From: Spirogloea muscicola
Lineage: Eukaryota > Streptophyta > Zygnematophyceae > Spirogloeales > Spirogloeaceae
Assembly: GCA_009602725.1 (NCBI GenBank)
Contig: WELB01000263.1
Location: 1-40,436, forward strand
Direction of reading: 5' to 3'
Length of the DNA stretch: 40,436 bases
The number at the start of each line of letters is the position of its first letter. Position 1 is the first letter of the stretch. This document shows positions 12,363 to 34,680 of this stretch, piece after piece. The notes under the pieces are model-generated. The model had not been told where the DNA came from. It saw nothing but the letters and a program-made list of their open reading frames with translations, and ran no database searches. Made by a program: the position numbers and the translations under genes.

Positions 12363-13476
<1,114 letters not shown>

Positions 13477-13478
13477 CC

Positions 13479-13601
13479 NNNNNNNNNNNNNNNNNNNNNN
13501 NNNNNNNNNNNNNNNNNNNNNNNNNNNNNNNNNNNNNNNNNNNNNNNNNNNNNNNNNNNNNNNNNNNNNNNNNNNNNNNNNNNNNNNNNNNNNNNNNNNN
13601 N
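13479..13601. other. Assembly gap (123 N)
   Basis: An uninterrupted run of N. The true length and content are unknown; it falls in the divergent promoter region about 100 bp upstream of the V-ATPase start. Confidence 0.98.
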
Positions 13602-13701
13602 CCCGCCCCCCTTCTCCGTCCCCCTCCTCGACCTGCCCCTCGGCCGCCCGCCGGTCCCCGCCGCCCGCCTGCCGCTCCCCGGCCCCGACGCCGGCGCCGC
13701 C

Positions 13702-16700
13702 ATGGACCTCTTCCGCTCCGAGGAGATGCAGCTCGTGCAGCTCATCATCCCCGCCGAGTCCGCGCACGACACCATCACCTACCTCGGCCAGATTGGCCTC
13801 ATCCAGTTCAATGATGTGCCAGCCACAAACTTGTCCCCCGAGCCCGGCCGTCCCCTGCAGCCTCTCTTCACGCGCGCTTCGCCCGCCCTGCGCGGGCTGC
13901 TCGTGGGCACGAGGCTGCCTGTCTGTGTGGTTGCCTGCCTGTCTGTCTGTCTGCACACACTCCCACTCGGGAGCACCTTCACGAAGCTCGTGTCTTGTAC
14001 ACCCTGTGCAGCTCAATACCGAGAAGAGCCCCTTCCAGCGCACGTATGCAAATCAGGTACGCCAATTTGCAGCCAGTGCGCGACCTTAGCAGGAGATTGC
14101 TGCCTTGCTTTGCTTGAGTCCCTATTCAAAATACTGCAGCTTCTGGGAAGCGTGTGGGCGCTGACTCTGCTGCACCTCACGGTAGGTCAAGCGCTGTGGC
14201 GAGATGGCACGCAAGATCCGTTTCTTCAAGGACCAGCAGACAAAGGCAGGTATTGCCATGAGCACGCGAAGTGGTGCGGACAAGGACTTTGACCTCGACG
14301 AGCTGGAGGTCAGTCTGTTCTACAGCGTTCGGACTTCTCTTGGGTCTGCCTGTCGCAGCCGTCATGGGCTACCTCCCTAGCTCCTGCTTTATGGGGTTGC
14401 CTGCCCGATCGATGTCATCTGCAGCCTCTGCGCGAGCAGATACAAGCTTCTGTGTACATAGCAGAGGCAATGTCCTGTTGTGCTCGTTTAGGTCAAGCTG
14501 GGGGAGTTAGAAGCGGAGCTTCTCGAGATCAACCAAAACAACGACAAGCTCATCAGGAGTCACAGCGAACTACGGGAGTTGCAGTTGGTCCTTGAGAAGG
14601 TGAAAGTCAGTGCCTCGTCATCATGAAGTGTGACAACAAATGGAAATGCTTGTTCTCTGCTGGCTTAGTCGATGGAATTCCACATAGATGGCGTGGATGC
14701 AGTGATCCAGCACTCCTCGGTCACGCTTTGGTATGTGACCATTTGTCGCGTTCTCGGTTGTAGGCTGGGGCTTTCTTTGGCCCTGCCAGAGATGATGCAG
14801 TTGCCCATCAGAGAGAGGTTGAGGAGGCTGCTAGTACGCAGGAGTACTCTGCAGACAGCCCGCTTTTGCTGGAACAGGTGACCCCTGCAGTAAGTGGGGG
14901 TCCTCAACTCCTGCGTCTGTGTTGCCTGCACGTTGCAGCTATCTGGATATACTAGCTACCTTAACAGAGGTTGGTATTTGGCGCCACTCTCGATTACTGA
15001 GGCAGGAGGTAGCTCGTATATGCAGGCCTGTCAGCAGCTGACTCCATGTCTTGGCCCCGTTTCCATCGTGGCAGGAGATGCAAACGGATCCTTCCAAGCA
15101 GATGCGGCTAGGTTTTGTGTCAGGGCTTGTTCCAAAAGCCAAGGCCCAGTCTTTTGAGAGGATCCTCTATCGTGCAACTCGTGGCAATATGTTTCTCAGG
15201 ATTTCTGAACTGGAGGAGCCTGTGGTGGATCCGGCCTCTGGAGAGCCGGTAAGCTCAAATCTCAGCCTGTGTCTTGAGTAATGGCCACATTCAGACTGCT
15301 CTTCACAGGCACTCTGATAGAGTTTGTGTCCTGGTTGCAGCTGGGTTGCTTGGTGTTTACTGTTGAGTGGTCACTGTTGTTGCTTGTATGCAGGAGGAGA
15401 AGGTTGTGTACGTGGTGTTCTTTGCTGGAGACCGAGCACGTACCAAAATCTTAAAAATTTGTGAGGCGTTTGGGGCCAATCGCTATCCCTTTCCCGAGGA
15501 GCCCGCTAAGCAAAGGCAGATGAGATCGGAGGTAACAGCTTACTTCCACTAGGTTTATGTACGGGAGCGTCGTTATGAGTGGGCTTTGTACCCAGCTTCA
15601 GAGCTGGATGCCTGTGGCTGCAGCTATTCCAGGTCGCACGCTTCAGCTGTATCTAGCACGCAATGGTTGCAGGTGTCAGCCAGACTTTCAGAACTTCAGT
15701 CGACGATTGATGCTGGACACCGTCATCGTGACAACGTGCTGACCTCAGTAGCTTATCAAATAGATACCTGGACAACAATGGTGAGTTTTTGACGGTGCAA
15801 GTATCATCACTTCTGACAAGTACATTGTTGCCTGAGACGCTGTACCTGTCACATGACCTGCCATTTTTCAGTGTGTATGAAGGTGCATCAGCTGTCAGCA
15901 AATCTGCATGTATGCTCATCTCTTTTGCATTGATCATGTGATGCCACAGGTTCGCAAAGAGAAGGCTGTGTACCACACCCTGAATATGCTAAGCATTGAC
16001 GTTACCAGGAAATGTCTGGTCGCCGAGGGTTGGTGCCCTGTACAGGCAAAGAATCAGGTACGACATCAATTGTTCAAGTCAAGACAAACCTCAGTGCAGA
16101 CGAAAGTCACCTCAGGCTCTCCTTAATCAATCTCTTGTCAATCTGCTCACGACCAATGTAGCATTGTTGGATTGTGTAAGGCATTGAGCAGCGGTCTTCC
16201 GCACCTGACTAACACTGGGACGTCAAGTCTTCCAGGTCCAAGATGCTCTGCAGAGGGCAGCTCTTGACAGCAATGCACAGGTTGGAACTATTTTTCAACC
16301 TATTTACACGAAGGAGTCACCACCAACATACTTCAAGACCAACAAAGTCACGGGGGCCTTTCAGGAAATTGTGGATGCATATGGGTGGGGATGCAAGCTC
16401 ACCCTGGTTGCCGCTTATATGCAATATTTGTGTCATCATGATCAGTCTGTGCAGTTTGCAGGTGCATGCATATGTTTTGCAGTCTTGCCACCCTCATGCC
16501 TTGGCAACATGTTTGTCTCTTCAGGATTGCAAAGTACAGGGAAGTGAACCCTGGCGTGTTCACCATCGTCACTTTCCCGTTCCTCTTCGCTGTCATGTTT
16601 GGGGACTGGGGCCACGGGCTTGCTCTTCTTCTGTTTGCTGTTTACCTCATAGTCAACGAGAGAAAGATGCTTGGTCAGGTATTCTTCCCCAGCACAGCCT

Positions 16701-21721: not shown

Positions 21722-22145
21722 CCCAGCTGAAAAGGGCGCATTTGCAAGGCTAGATAGATAGAGCTGGCCTCCCCCTCGCAATCTCGTGCGCACCGCGCGC
21801 CTTCTTCGACTCTTGCCTTGGCCTCCGGCCTGCTCCGCCGCCGTCGCCTTGTGCGTTGGGAAAGAAGGTGCTCGCCCATTGAGAAGAAGATGAGCTCGCC
21901 CATAGAAGCGAGGGGCTGGCAGAAGCCAGCCAAAAAAGAATGGACAAAATCCAAAAGAAGGGAAACACACTAGCTAGGCATCGAGAAGAGGGGCTGGCAA
22001 AGCCAACCCAAAAAGAATGGACAATGTTCAAAGCCAAAGAAAGAGGTGCTGAAAAAGGACTACACTACAAAGTGCAAGACGGTGCAGAGGGAGATGTAGA
22101 TGGCTGCTCAGTATCCACGTGTGAGCAACAGCAGATCAGAGTAAA
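21722..22145. mobile_element. Retroelement 3' UTRs in both orientations
   Basis: Plus-sense UTR box at about 21726-21805 (CTGGCCTCCCC..GTGCGCACCGCGCGCC). Minus-sense hairpins near 21913-21930 and 21990-22008 (GGGCTGGCAAAGCC). The minus-sense unit at 21980-22140 runs from a tail SDLLLLTRGY with TGA (minus strand, about 22138-22106) through TAGTGTAGTCC to the terminal hairpin, so the whole 3' UTR from stop codon to terminus can be read here. Confidence 0.7.
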
Positions 22146-22360: not shown

Positions 22361-22954
22361 GCCAAAAAAGGACTACACCTCAAAACACTACAAACACAAG
22401 ACGATGCAGAGTGAAGCTCAGTACCCGCGAGTCAGCAACATCAGGTCGGAGTAGCTCGCTGCACGGAAAGAGGCACTCCGCCTAGACCCGGAGACGGTAG
22501 CCATAGCACGGCCCGCTCGCGTGTGGACGGCGTAGGCAAAGGGAGCGTTGAAACGATACCGCCAGGCGCATACGGAAGACTTGGGCGAGCGGACCGGCGG
22601 CGTTGAAGCCGGGCATCGCCCCTGGCAGACCTGGCCGCCGGTCAATGGCCTGACGGGCAAGCCGCTGGAGGAGATCCAGCCAGCGGCTGCCGAAAGCCCC
22701 GTCGCCAGGGCCGCGAATTCATCACCAACCGGGTGATCGGCATATTTTCGCTCCTTGCCTTGTTTCAACGCTCCCGTGCCTACGCCGTCCACACGCGAGC
22801 AGGCCGTGCTATGGCCACCGCCTCTGAGTCTCGGCGGAGTGCCTCTTTCCGTGCAGCGAGCTACTCCGACCTGATGTTGCTGACTCGCGGGTACTGAGCT
22901 TCCCTCTGCATCGTCTTGTGTTTGTAGTGTTTTGAGGTGTAGTCCTTTTTTGGC
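22361..22954. repeat. Inverted repeat, 194-bp arms, ~95% identical
   Basis: Bases 22361-22554 and 22762-22954 are reverse complements with about nine differences and a 207-bp spacer. Both arms encode the retroelement C-terminus ending SYSDLMLLTRGY, left arm on the minus strand (stop at 22418) and right arm on the plus strand (stop at 22897). The minus copy continues into the spacer (KYADHPVGDEF), so the arms are two separate insertions or an inverted duplication. The N at 22360 touches the left arm, so an assembly artefact is possible. Confidence 0.8.
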
Positions 22955-23041
22955 ACCTTCTTTCTTCGGCTTTGGACACTGTCCATTCCTTGTGGGCTGG
23001 CTTTGCGAGCCCCTCTTCTCTATGGGCGCGAGCCCTTTCTT
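22898..23041 (+). mobile_element. Complete retroelement 3' UTR with terminal hairpin
   Basis: Follows the TGA at 22895-22897. In order: TCGTCTTGTGTTTGTAGTG, TAGTCCTTTTTTGG, GGACACTGTCC, GGGCTGGCTTTGCGAGCCCC and TATGGGCGCGAGCCC. It is homologous along its length to the 129-bp insertion at 27194-27322, and the next retroelement fragment starts immediately after it. Confidence 0.75.
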
Positions 23042-24086: not shown

Positions 24087-25268
24087 GGCGGTCTCGGCTT
24101 GCGCCCGCTCGTCCGTTCCTGCCAGGCAGCGTGTCTCGGCAGCAGGCGCAGACAGCCGCCTCCGTGGCCCAGCGCTTCTTGGTCCACGGCCGGCGTGCTC
24201 TGGAGCAGGCGGTGGTGGAGGTAGAAACGGGTGTGCTGCCTTTCCAGGCGTCGCTACGCTCCGCTCAGCAGGAGCTGCTCGCGGCGCACCCGGACCTGGC
24301 GGGCCAGGCGGTCTCCCTTGCGCACCTCGCGCACACCGCCGACCTGCGCGTCCAAGCGCGATTCGCAGCCGCGATGGACAAGGCCGCCTTCACCACCGCC
24401 TTGCTGCAGCTCCCGGAGGCCGACCTGCGCGCGAGACTCCACTCGGCCTCTTCCCCGGGGGCCGCGCCGTGGCTCCAGGCCCTCCCCCTCAACGATGCCC
24501 TCACTCTCTCGGACGAGGTATTTCGCAGTGCCATCCACCGGCTCCTGGGCCTGCCGCCGCCATGCCTCCAGGGTGTGCGTCAGTGCGAATGTGGCGAGCG
24601 GGGGGCCGAGCCTGGGGAGCTGGCCGCTCATGTTCTGCGCTGTTCCCACGGCGGAGAGCAGACAGCGGCCCACGACCGCCTCCGGGATGCGATGCATGGC
24701 ATCCTGGTGGAGGCTGGCTTCTCGGTGGCAGCGGAGAACTCTGCTGTCAGGCCGCTCCAGCAAAGGGCCGACGGTCTCCACGCACGTCGCGTAAACCTTG
24801 TGGCCACCCCACAAGCTGGCGGGCCACGTCTTATCCTGGATGTGGTGACCACAGACGCATACGACCGCTCACACCCAGCCCAATGTGCCATCAAGGCTGG
24901 GTATGCGGTCGCCTGCGCCGCTCGAGCTAAGGAGCTCAAATGTGCTGATCCGCGGGAAGACGAGTACTTCCCGCTGGCCTATCGACACGCATGGGGCGTT
25001 GGGCGCTCGGTGGCTCGAGCTGCTCAATCAGCTCACCCGCCACGCCATCGTCCGCCGCTTCCATGGGGAGCCAGTGGACTTCCCTGCAGCCGGGTCGCTA
25101 GCGCCGGTGTACCGGATGCGCTTGGCCGTCTCGCTGCAGAGGTCTATGGCCCGCGCGCTGCACCTGCGTGCCGGCAGAGCCCTCGCTGCTGCTTCTGGCT
25201 CTGGCCAGGGGACCCACTTCCAGGAGCCTAGCTTCTCTGACCTGAGGCTGCTTAGCAGGGGTTACTGA
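24080..25268 (+). pseudogene. Longest retroelement copy: linker, CCHC finger, PD-(D/E)XK-like domain
   Basis: Plus-strand remnant starting DAHGGLGLRPLVRSC, a segment that follows the reverse transcriptase in such elements. After a frameshift near 24130 it continues in one frame: QAVSLAHLAHTADLRVQARF (linker), CLQGVRQCECGERG with HVLRC (finger, about 24570-24640), LILDVVTTDAYDRSHP and AKELKCAD (nuclease-like, about 24830-24950). One extra T in GGCCTATCGACACG (about 24980) shifts the frame, and the rest, ending SFSDLRLLSRGY, follows in another frame to TGA at 25266-25268. No reverse transcriptase motif is present. The family would be a non-LTR retrotransposon with a restriction-like endonuclease; this rests on motif order. 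Confidence 0.75.
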
Positions 25269-25307
25269 GTAATACGTAGCTGCTTTGTTACTTGTTGTGC
25301 TTGGTTT

Positions 25308-26080
25308 TCTTACCCTCCCGGATGAGGCGTTCCGCAGTGCCGTCCACCGGCTCCTGGGCTTGCCGCCGCCATGCCTCCAGGGCGTGCAACAGTGTGAGTG
25401 TGGTGAGCGAGGGGCCGAGCAGGGGGAGCTGGCCGCTCATGTTCTGCGCTGTTCCCACGGCGGAGAGCGGACCGCGGCCCATGACCATCTCAGGGATGCG
25501 ATGCATGGCATCCTTGTGGAGGCGGGCTTCTCGGTGGCAGCCGAGAACTCTGCCGTCATGCCGCTCCAGCAACGGGCCGACGGTCTCCACGCTCGTCGCG
25601 TGGACCTTGTGGCCACCCCACCGGCAGGCGGGCCACGTCTTCTCCTGGACGTGGTGACCACCGACTCCTATGACCGCTCCCATCCAACCCAGTGTGCCAC
25701 CAAAGCTGGGTATGCGGCAGCCTGCGCAGCTCGGGCCAAGGAGCTAAAATACGCAGATCACCCGCGGGACGACGAGTTCTTCCCGCTCGCCATCGATACG
25801 CACGGGGCGCTGGGCGCTCGGTGGCTCGAGCTGCTCAACCAGCTCTCTCGTCACGCCATTGCCCGCCGCTTTCATGGGGAGCCGGTGGACTCCCATGCAG
25901 CAGGGTCGCTAGCGCAGGTGTACCGCATGCGCTAGGCCGTCTCGCTGCAGAGGTCTATGGCCCGCGCGCTGCACCTGCGTGCAGGCAGAGCCCTCGCTGC
26001 TGCCTCTGGCTCTGGCCAGGGGACCCGCTTCCAGGAACCCAGTCTCTCTGACCTGAGGCTGCTTAGCAGGGGTTACTGAG
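25308..26080 (+). pseudogene. Second, tandem retroelement copy with one nonsense codon
   Basis: Matches 24507-25268 at roughly 90% by eye, offset 807-812 bp. It lacks the frameshift of the first copy, reading EFFPLAIDTHGALG intact, but has TAG at 25933-25935 where the first copy has a Leu codon (YRMR, stop, AVSLQRS). It ends SLSDLRLLSRGY, TGA 26078-26080. It starts about 40 bp after the first copy's stop, so the first copy lost most of its UTR. Confidence 0.78.
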
Positions 26081-26405
26081 TGCTTCGTAGCTGCTTCGCT
26101 TCTTTTCTGTGCTTGTTGTTCTTCGTACTTCCCCTGGCCCCTTCTCGTCCTTTGTACATTCTTTTCTGGGCTGGCTTTTTCCAGCCCCTATCCTCAATGG
26201 GCGAGCCCTTCTCTCGTTTTCTTAACGCTTCTTCTGGGCCCCTTCTCGTACTTCGTTCCTTCTTTTTTGGGCTGGCTTTTCCAGCCCATATCCTCAATGG
26301 GCGAGCCCTTCCTATTAGTCACTTTCTGCGCCCTCCGGCTCCTTCAGACCTTGTCCATTCCTTCGGGCTGGCCTCTCACAGCCACCAGTCAATTTGGACG
26401 CGCTT
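26081..26405 (+). repeat. Three consecutive retroelement 3' UTR hairpins
   Basis: Perfect stems at 26168-26187 (GGGCTGGCTTTTTCCAGCCC) and 26269-26287 (GGGCTGG-CTTTT-CCAGCCC), and a weaker one at about 26368-26386. The first two are each followed by ATCCTCAATGGGCGAGCCCT, the terminal sequence. Each is preceded by CCCCTTCTCGTNCTT..TTC, so this is a stack of UTR-only copies. Confidence 0.8.
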
Positions 26406-26640: not shown

Positions 26641-27975
26641 AGAAGGCGCGCGGAGCGCATGAAATGAAAGGGAGGACAACTCAAGCCAACACTTCACCAG
26701 CCAGAGTCTAGTGCAAAGTAAACAAGGCTACATAACACGGAGACCTAAAGTAAGGTGCCTAAGGTAACAGAGTCACATTAGTACCCACGGGTGAGCATAA
26801 CAAATCCGACAAGCTAACTTGGGGAGCAAAAGCGCTGCCACGAAAGCCGGAGGCCTGACCTTAGATCGCGCCCTGCACGTTGATGAAGAGCCAATGCTTG
26901 CGAGCGCTGCAAACTAAGCCAAAGCCGCATTCTACAATATGCAACTAAGGCCTGCGGAATGCTGGAGTGGCCCAAGCTGCCCCCCCGACTTCGACGACGC
27001 GCATCAACCAGCCGGGCCAGATGCTGGATCAGGGAGGACCATTTCACTCCGTAGCCTCCGGAGATATCCGTGGCACACGGACAAAACTGGTCCCCTCGGG
27101 GATGGTCCTGGTAGTGCCGCTCCTTCTTGGGCTCCGCGCTGGACGTGGCCCAGCCAGACACGGTTGACGTGGGTGCGCCAGCCTTGTATGCATGTTGTCT
27201 GTGTTGTATGTGTTTTGTAGTGTAGTCCTTTTTCCGGCTCCTCCTTCTTTGGCTTTGGACATTGTCCATTCCTTTCTGGGCTGGCTTTGCCAGCCCCTCT
27301 TCTCTATGGGCGCGCACTTCTTTTGTATGCATCGATCAGGACCACGTCCAGGAGCAGACGAGGCCCACCGCCCCGGGGGGTGGCGACCACGCCCCGGGGG
27401 GTGGCGATTACGTCCAGACGCCGCACGTATGGCTTGCCGCGCCTTCAGGAGATTGGCATGATGCCGGACACCTCCATCGCCCGATGATACCCCGCCTCTC
27501 GCACAATTCCAAACATAGTATCCCTGAGTAAGTCGTGGGAGGCAATGCGCTCACCCCCCTCAACACATTTCAGCATGTGCGCAGCAAGAGCGAGCTTGTC
27601 ATCGGCAATATGGCCACACTCGCACTGGCGGATGCCAGCCAAGCAAGGTGGGGGAGGCCGTGGTGGTGATGGAGCGCTGTACGAAACAGGTTGTCTGAGA
27701 GCCGAAGGGACTTGTATATCGGCAGAGCATTTAATCACTCGGACGCGCCCGGGGCCTGATGGAAAGGAGCCGGGTGAGGCCTCGTCCATCGTCCTTGAGC
27801 AGTCCCTTCAGTTCGGAGGCGGCCTGCACGTCCGCAGCGTGAGTGTAATGGGCATGCGTTTTCCTGTCGGAACAGCGTGCCCGTGCCACAAAAGCTGCAT
27901 GACCCTCTGCAAGTGTTGGTAAGGAGCGCGAGAGGTCACGTGGTGCTGCGGTCAGAGAGAGCTGGAAGGGCAAGT
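26641..27975 (-). pseudogene. Older retroelement copy interrupted by a UTR-only insertion
   Basis: Read on the minus strand from 27975: linker (LPFQLSLTAAPRDLSRSLP), finger (GIRQCECGH..HMLKC), an in-frame stop, then GPRLLLDVVLIDA at about 27370-27330. Bases 27194-27322 are a foreign insertion, after which the frame resumes AYKAGAPTSTVSGWA, ERHYQDHPRGDQF, CRMRLWLSLQRSQALALHQR and, after a one-base loss, MLTRGY with TAA at 26780-26778. The UTR with CCTTAGGCACCTTA and CATGCGCTCCGCGCGCC follows to 26641. A 21-bp in-frame duplication (ATPRGVV) lies near 27370-27410. Confidence 0.78.
27194..27322 (+). mobile_element. 129-bp 3'-UTR-only retroelement insertion with 10-bp target-site duplication
   Basis: Flanked by TTGTATGCAT at 27184-27193 and 27323-27332. 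In plus sense it carries TTTGTAGTGTAGTCC, GGACATTGTCC, the hairpin GGGCTGG-CTTTG-CCAGCCC (27278-27296) and the terminal TATGGGCGCGCACTTCTT, with no poly(A). Deleting it together with one flank copy restores the older minus-strand frame (LIDA-YKAG). The homologous unit at 22898-23041 follows a retroelement stop codon, so this is the bare 3' tail of that family or a SINE sharing it. Confidence 0.85.
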
Positions 27976-28554: not shown

Positions 28555-29010
28555 TCAGAAACCACGGGTCAAAACATAAAGGTCGCTAACCGATGCCTGG
28601 ATACTAGATGGCAGATACGAAGCCCTTCTGCTACCAACTAGAGCTCGCCCAGCTCTGGTGCAAAGCATTAGCCTGAGCACGCTGCAAACAGGCCGAAACT
28701 CGTCGTCGCAACGACAGATAAGCAGCTGGCAAGCCCATCTCAGCCGGGAACACATCTGCATGTCGTGTGTAGCCTAGATTGGCTATGTTTTGAAGGAGAG
28801 TAAGGAAACGAGGACCTAAGCAGCCAAAGATGTCGATTGCTGCTGGCAAGAGCTGATTACATCGGGGGCAATCGGAGTAGTGCTGCAACTTTCTTTGTTC
28901 AGCACTGCCCACTGCGTGGCCAGCGATGTGTGTCGATGCTGGACCTTTATAGGCCTCCGTAACCACAATATCGAAATGGAGTGAACGAGGTCCGCAGGGG
29001 CCAGCAAAGA
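28555..29010 (-). pseudogene. Retroelement C-terminal fragment, second subfamily, inverted
   Basis: Minus strand from about 29000: FDIVVTEAYKGPASTH, QRKLQHYSDCPRCNQLLPAA, RVSACLQRAQANALHQ, then a frameshift and SVSDLYVLTRGF to the stop at 28555. The VVTEAYKGPAST stretch corresponds to the AYKAGAPTST junction restored at 27184-27332. Confidence 0.7.
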
Positions 29011-29120: not shown

Positions 29121-29244
29121 TCCGGGGAGTTCCTTCTTTTTTGGGCTGGCTTTTCCAGCCCCTATCCTCAATGGGCGAGCCCTTCCGGGGCTGGCCTCTC
29201 CCAGCCACCAGTTAATCTGGCCGCGCTTGCTCTCTTCCGGGGAG
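29121..29244 (+). mobile_element. Retroelement hairpin pair just upstream of TAP46
   Basis: Perfect stem GGGCTGG-CTTTT-CCAGCCC at 29143-29161, the terminal ATCCTCAATGGGCGAGCCCT, then a second hairpin GGGGCTGGCCTCTCCCAGCC at about 29187-29206. Direct repeats TCCGGGGAG at 29121-29129 and 29236-29244 could be a target-site duplication, though TCCGGGG also occurs inside (29184-29190). The downstream flank is 46 bp from the TAP46 start codon. Confidence 0.65.
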
Positions 29245-34589: not shown

Positions 34590-34680
34590 CTAGGGTATTG
34601 TCCTTCTTTTTGGGCTGGCTTTGCCAGCACCTCTTCTCTAAGGGCGAGCAATTCTTCCATGAACAACGGGCATTCCCTCT
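34590..34680 (+). repeat. Retroelement 3' UTR hairpin upstream of HUS1
   Basis: GGGCTGGCTTTGCCAGCACC (34612-34631) followed by TCTCTAAGGGCGAGCAATTC, a diverged copy of the terminal hairpin and 3' end. Confidence 0.65.

Follow-up and report, generated by a model that had tools for sequence, protein, structure and literature searches.

A 129-nt insert flanked by 10-bp repeats in Spirogloea muscicola, very probably the 5′-truncated tail of an R2-like LINE

Within the window (the whole 40,436-nt stretch of Spirogloea muscicola DNA analysed here), a 129-nt insert interrupts an older LINE copy. It is very probably a 5′-truncated copy of an R2-like LINE of which only the 3′-UTR tail is left, and which duplicated its target site (TSD) on insertion. 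The insert is flanked by a duplication, its site is empty in paralogues, its sequence is homologous to LINE 3′ UTRs, and it falls within a genome-wide continuum of truncated copies whose flanks are enriched for duplications. The event is real and well preserved, but ordinary for an abundant LINE family. Mildly unusual are the shortness of many copies and, for an R2-like element, the apparent lack of strict targeting.

The insert and the LINE copy it interrupts

Perfect copies of TTGTATGCAT, at 27184-27193 and at 27323-27332, enclose 129 nt, as reported in the preliminary description of this locus. The features of the insert, of its target and of related copies in the window are as follows.

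26964-27183, minus strand: first part of the target (220 nt tested), a coding piece of the older LINE copy; in the orientation of that copy it lies downstream of the insertion
27184-27193, no strand: left TSD copy, whose last five bases (TGCAT) also match the element 3′ UTR (5′-junction microhomology, 5-nt overlap)
27194-27322, plus strand: the insert, very probably a 5′-truncated LINE copy comprising 3′ UTR only, with homology to LINE 3′ UTRs
27278-27296, plus strand: subterminal hairpin with an 8-bp stem (GGGCTGGC/GCCAGCCC) and the loop TTT, a block common to other LINE lineages
27297-27322, plus strand: conserved 3′ tail past the hairpin, CTCTTCTCTATGGGCGCGCACTTCTT, with the same CTTCT end zone in other copies that have duplications
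27323-27332, no strand: right TSD copy, a single site in the four paralogues read
27333-27552, minus strand: second part of the target (220 nt tested), from the same older LINE copy; in the orientation of that copy it lies upstream of the insertion
22898-23041, plus strand: homologous LINE 3′ UTR, which runs from just past the stop codon (22895-22897) as far as the tail and is 88% identical over 117 nt; it is not the direct parent, and its right end is approximate
21979-22071, minus strand: another copy of the same 3′ UTR, 91% over 95 nt
34597-34656, plus strand: another hairpin and tail copy, 87% over 62 nt
26152-26212, plus strand: hairpin-plus-tail block from a second LINE lineage, 85% over 61 nt
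29134-29185, plus strand: hairpin-plus-tail block, again from the second lineage, 85% over 52 nt

Elsewhere in the window, a LINE C-terminal segment is tandemly duplicated (24500-25311 and 25309-26123, 88% over 816 nt) and a LINE end is present as an inverted repeat (22361-22554 and 22762-22954, 95% over 194 nt). A run of N lies within 12697-14292; the ORFs of this region take in a ubiquitin-like domain and a stretch that we take to be V-ATPase subunit a-like; ORFs of the window presumably resemble zeaxanthin epoxidase and V-ATPase subunit a.

Removing the insert together with one repeat rejoins the older minus-strand copy in frame, as had been predicted: the minus strand then reads GGGPRLLLDVVLIDAYKAGAPTSTVSGWA over the junction in a single frame, at the point where the related copy at 28555-29010 reads VVTEAYKG. 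Because a stop codon persists in this frame upstream of the rejoined junction, the older copy is broken regardless of the insert. The target copy also has a 21-bp tandem duplication at ~27371-27412, which is absent from four aligned paralogues (21 gaps each).

The predicted empty site was found, with the rejoined sequence, in paralogues of the same genome. We searched that genome with the joined 450-nt flanks and scored the best 40 of 819 candidates; all 40 span the rejoined junction, and 33 cover the full 450 nt, at 85-91% identity. Four paralogues examined base by base have a single site and lack the insert, two of them carrying TTGTATGCGT and two differing by one base. A pattern of the uninterrupted junction occurs 197 times in the genome at ≤1 mismatch, and its reversed control 0 times. 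The 100 junctions listed of these 197 are all exact; where the window locus reads A, 99 of them read G and one reads A.

This same base bears on how much of the flanking repeat is a true duplication. Related 3′ UTRs have TGCAT at the place matching the left repeat, and up to five of the ten duplicated bases at the insert may therefore be element sequence or microhomology instead of TSD. The A of the locus (G in paralogues) is present in both flanking copies. Since related 3′ UTRs have TGCAT there, the A in the left copy is possibly element-derived; that in the right copy is not so explicable, which places the TSD at at least 5 and at most 10 bp and the 5′-junction microhomology at no more than 5 bp.

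The insert aligns with LINE 3′ UTRs as far as the left repeat and shows no LINE-unrelated head. It had been described as equal to the 3′ UTR following the stop codon that ends at 22897; the homology stands but the equality does not, as the insert and 22917-23030 are 88% identical (103/117 nt). Similarly, the 3′ end (...GGGCGCGCACTTCTT) has no poly(A), as stated earlier, but the hairpin, which had been called terminal, is not: GGGCTGGC-TTT-GCCAGCCC is followed by 26 nt of tail. Its stem varies little among 14 aligned tails, and folding of the whole insert is only somewhat better than that of shuffles (z -1.97). A scan of the window against Rfam at gathering scores gave no match.

Truncation and target duplication across the genome

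A search of the genome with the insert listed 44 matches from 2,087 candidates, the best 40 of which were scored. Allowing ≤2 mismatches, a 33-nt pattern taken from hairpin and tail has 2,667 occurrences and its reversed control has none; tails of the LINE family are scattered over many contigs with varied flanks. For the distribution of 5′ ends, we used the 100 tails listed of these 2,667, all exact 33-nt matches, each retrieved together with 600 nt of upstream and 120 nt of downstream flank, and set each 5′ end by anchored extension against seven long copies.

The 5′ ends of the 100 sampled copies are spread continuously, the nearest 3 nt upstream of the hairpin core and the farthest at the 600-nt flank limit. 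With the insert counted, the quartiles of the 101 values are 42, 97 and 227 nt (median 97). Measured upstream of the hairpin core, 58 of the 100 are shorter than 130 nt, 36 shorter than 60 and 13 shorter than 30, with a broad high at ~30-55 nt. There is no excess at the insert's own 5′ end (92 nt), within 5 nt of which 4/100 sampled copies end. Such a continuum is that of 5′-truncated LINE copies, and of the two origins offered in the preliminary description, a truncated copy or a SINE, it agrees with the first.

The abundance of the shortest copies raises the question of their templates. Short RNA fragments of the LINE 3′ end might have been reverse transcribed, so that a tail of ~50-150 nt would be a self-sufficient mobile unit; in its fullest form, the bare 3′ tail would be a main product of an R2-like LINE, RNAs of 50-150 nt its templates, and hairpin and tail the minimal mobile unit. 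Copies shorter than 60 and 30 nt are indeed common, and those of <30 nt retain an excess of flank matches of at least 6 nt (5/13, 1.9 expected; pairing described below). An early RT stop on a long template would yield the same products, however, and despite the broad high the 5′ ends are not gathered at a single processing site. We regard both the short templates and this fuller form as improbable. If true, hairpin and tail alone would seed very many sites, some of them inside the tails of other repeats. The earlier statement that ~130 nt is enough to be mobilised does not follow from the insert, as a truncated product says nothing about the length of its template.

A SINE, that is, a discrete non-autonomous unit of ~130 nt with its own transcription and a borrowed LINE 3′ tail, is slightly less likely still. 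Sharing of tails between LINEs and SINEs is known, in Chlamydomonas too, where the part of PMC3747384 drawn on here describes SINEX with RandI/Dualen. Of the 35 close relatives of the insert examined, one (L167) starts at the same TGCAT. Only 3/35 end within 10 nt of the insert end, L167 included, and 31 extend past 110 nt and reach coding sequence; where they stop varies widely, some at stretches of N (L135 and L141, whose true ends are masked) or at the fetched edge. Neither these relatives nor the 100 sampled tails show 5′ ends clustered at that of the insert, the insert shows no head foreign to the LINE, and ARAGORN found no tRNA gene in the window. The 35 relatives were drawn from 43 non-self matches listed; four others (L006, L014, L022 and L034, with 5′ ends at 113, 101, 201 and 264) were already among the 100, and four more, which adjoin included ones, were left out. 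As relatives were ranked by similarity over the whole insert, shorter copies are under-sampled and a SINE of insert length would be favoured.

The expectation that other copies carry flanking duplications was borne out. For 95 of the 101 copies (six with a 5′ end close to or past the limit of the fetched flank were dropped), we compared the longest exact match between left and right flank with that in every mismatched pairing of these copies. Matches of at least 6 nt were found in 37 copies where 11.7 were expected, of at least 7 nt in 21 (4.4 expected), of at least 8 nt in 16 (1.8) and of at least 9 nt in 12 (0.7); 0/10,000 permutations reached the observed counts at 6, 7, 8 or 9 nt. An earlier pass with wider limits had given matches of at least 8 nt in 20/101 copies and in 46/808 mismatched pairings. 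Each of the five length classes shows the excess, the 30-60 nt class least (7/22, 4.6 expected, at ≥6 nt).

Individually convincing duplications (p ≤ 0.05 and at least 6 nt) number 23/95 with the insert counted, of which up to ~5 are possibly due to chance at this per-copy threshold. Duplications in the family are often short, absent or eroded, and variable, as judged from the 58/95 copies without a flank match of at least 6 nt and from two apparently full-length copies in which the duplication is unclear. In all 23 confident cases the base preceding the duplication is C or G, and the commonest first and second bases are C (15) and T (15), the left edge of the duplication being chosen by longest match. 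This C/G | CT start may reflect an endonuclease preference or an overlap with the pyrimidine tail. Overlap of at least 3 nt between the 5′ junction and the element occurs in 9/23 of these cases, with 3.0 expected.

A second clean case, L083, repeats the structure of the insert in shorter form, with an 82-nt insert, a 12-nt duplication (TCGCACAAGTCT) and host sequence that reads as LINE coding. Its empty site is spanned in 40/40 scored paralogues (the best 40 of 1,814 candidates) at 97-99% identity, in 38 of them over all 140 nt. For the shortest candidate, the 50-nt insert L065 with an 8-nt flank match, the genome search found no empty site, and we do not number it among the demonstrated insertions. 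In the right flank of L065 is another high-copy repeat with a sharp start at TGTATGCATCTGGCTGGC in many contigs, and other short copies (L062, L064, L088 and L094, for example) adjoin pyrimidine-rich ends of other repeats. A target preference of the tail family, for C/G | CT and pyrimidine-rich neighbours, is possible.

Formation of the flanking repeats and insert by another route, such as gene conversion or replication slippage between repeats without retrotransposition, could draw on the density of related repeats in the region and on the TGCAT within the element itself, but is highly improbable, given that the site is clean in the paralogues read, that the insert ends in the common 3′ end zone of the family and that the same junction structure occurs at other loci with differing duplicated sequences.

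The LINE family and its relatives

Two copies, L123 (2202-6499) and L124 (2013-6308), are 99.7% identical over 4.3 kb and, as they also share their first base, were taken as full-length. Both contain a single long ORF (1,410 aa in L123, 1,433 aa in L124), followed by a 3′ UTR that is 85% (L123) or 87% (L124) like the insert over 107 nt and ends in the hairpin, ATGGGCGAGCC and TTCTTCT. Neither shows a clear target duplication. Their near-identity and long open frames point to a recent family. They belong to a sister subfamily of the insert's own, and among the copies examined we identified no intact full-length parent of that subfamily. A further copy, L125, belongs to a related lineage (72% in the RT) with hairpin and tail after its ORF; it matches the insert only over this last part of the 3′ UTR, as would be expected if the RT recognises the block.

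The ORFs of L123 and L125 match Pfam RVT_1 (2.5e-13 and 8.4e-16, respectively). An RT search with a related copy listed 118 matches (117 scored of 1,911 candidates), and because many of these lie in long open frames, the family is taken to be large and in part recent. Against the PDB, a profile of nine RT copies matched R2 proteins at 1.2e-9, 1.6e-9 and 6.7e-6, with the next match at 0.079, a comparison among solved structures only; a single RT sequence had no match there. NCBIfam gave only matches to group II intron RTs, far below the cut-off.

The C-terminus carries CECGARHADPAELAAHMLRC... together with RRADLVAI...IITDVVTTD. We take this order, CxC...H...C followed by (R)xDL...DVVTTD, to correspond to a zinc knuckle plus PD-(D/E)XK-like endonuclease, as in RLE elements. 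Neither Pfam nor a phmmer search of the PDB returned a match for the endonuclease part. A low-confidence model (pLDDT 47) of the homologous C-terminal piece, built from three window copies, aligned by VIA-align with PD-(D/E)XK nucleases at Z scores up to 6.4 and with R2 C-termini at 4.6-6.0, but also, at similar Z, with unrelated proteins such as acetyl-CoA carboxylase at 6.1; by Foldseek, the best match of this model was TDP2 (0.029), with an R2 protein sixth (0.11) and none reaching 0.001. These matches fall short of a reliable level and are at most suggestive of a putative PD-(D/E)XK-like endonuclease in the C-terminal part of the LINE ORF.

The likeness to the R2 group and to RLE LINEs consists of the single long ORF, an RT profile that matches the R2 proteins of the PDB (a profile match rather than a placement in a clade tree) and a C-terminal motif order that we presume to be alike. 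Targeting differs. R2 proper inserts at one 28S rDNA site, by the portion of PMC4640811 consulted, whereas the tails described here are dispersed, with at most a weak C/G | CT preference. In this respect they resemble the HERO clade, described in the same portion of PMC4640811 as RLE type with non-specific insertion in many families.

Among green algae, the Dualen elements offer another comparison. They are present in Chlamydomonas and relatives (excerpts of PMC8226300) and also encode an APE endonuclease (excerpts of PMC3636483). Like RandI/Dualen and SINEX, as far as the cited section of PMC3747384 describes them, the present family pairs a putatively RLE-bearing LINE with a 3′ tail common to elements. 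In contrast to Dualen, which has APE, and to SINEX, which is a SINE, we found here neither an APE-type domain (by Pfam at E ≤ 1, in the two ORFs of L123 and L125) nor a SINE with a head of its own. In stringent-type LINEs (UnaL2, ZfL2 and R2, in the section of PMC4176376 used here), a 3′ stem-loop is recognised; here, hairpin and tail are conserved over lineages without poly(A), and the LINE RT may likewise recognise the hairpin.

A model for the insertion and its meaning

The 5′-truncated LINE copy that we favour would have arisen through target-primed reverse transcription by an RLE-type LINE, as follows. Bound to the hairpin and tail with which its own RNA ends, the LINE protein would nick the target, the older LINE copy, and the nicked strand would prime reverse transcription with no need of poly(A). 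Synthesis of cDNA may then have halted, or the RNA been exhausted, at ~130 nt. At its 5′ end the copy would have been linked to the target, probably through annealing of the shared TGCAT, while staggering of the nicks would give rise to the duplication. Truncated L1 copies are known to show microhomology at their 5′ junctions.

The clean insertion fixes the 3′ end of an abundant, dispersedly inserting R2-like LINE family, in which products as short as 82 and 129 nt reached completion, target duplication included. Its thousands of tails, graded in length, provide material for studying how copies of RLE-type LINEs come to end at their 5′ side.
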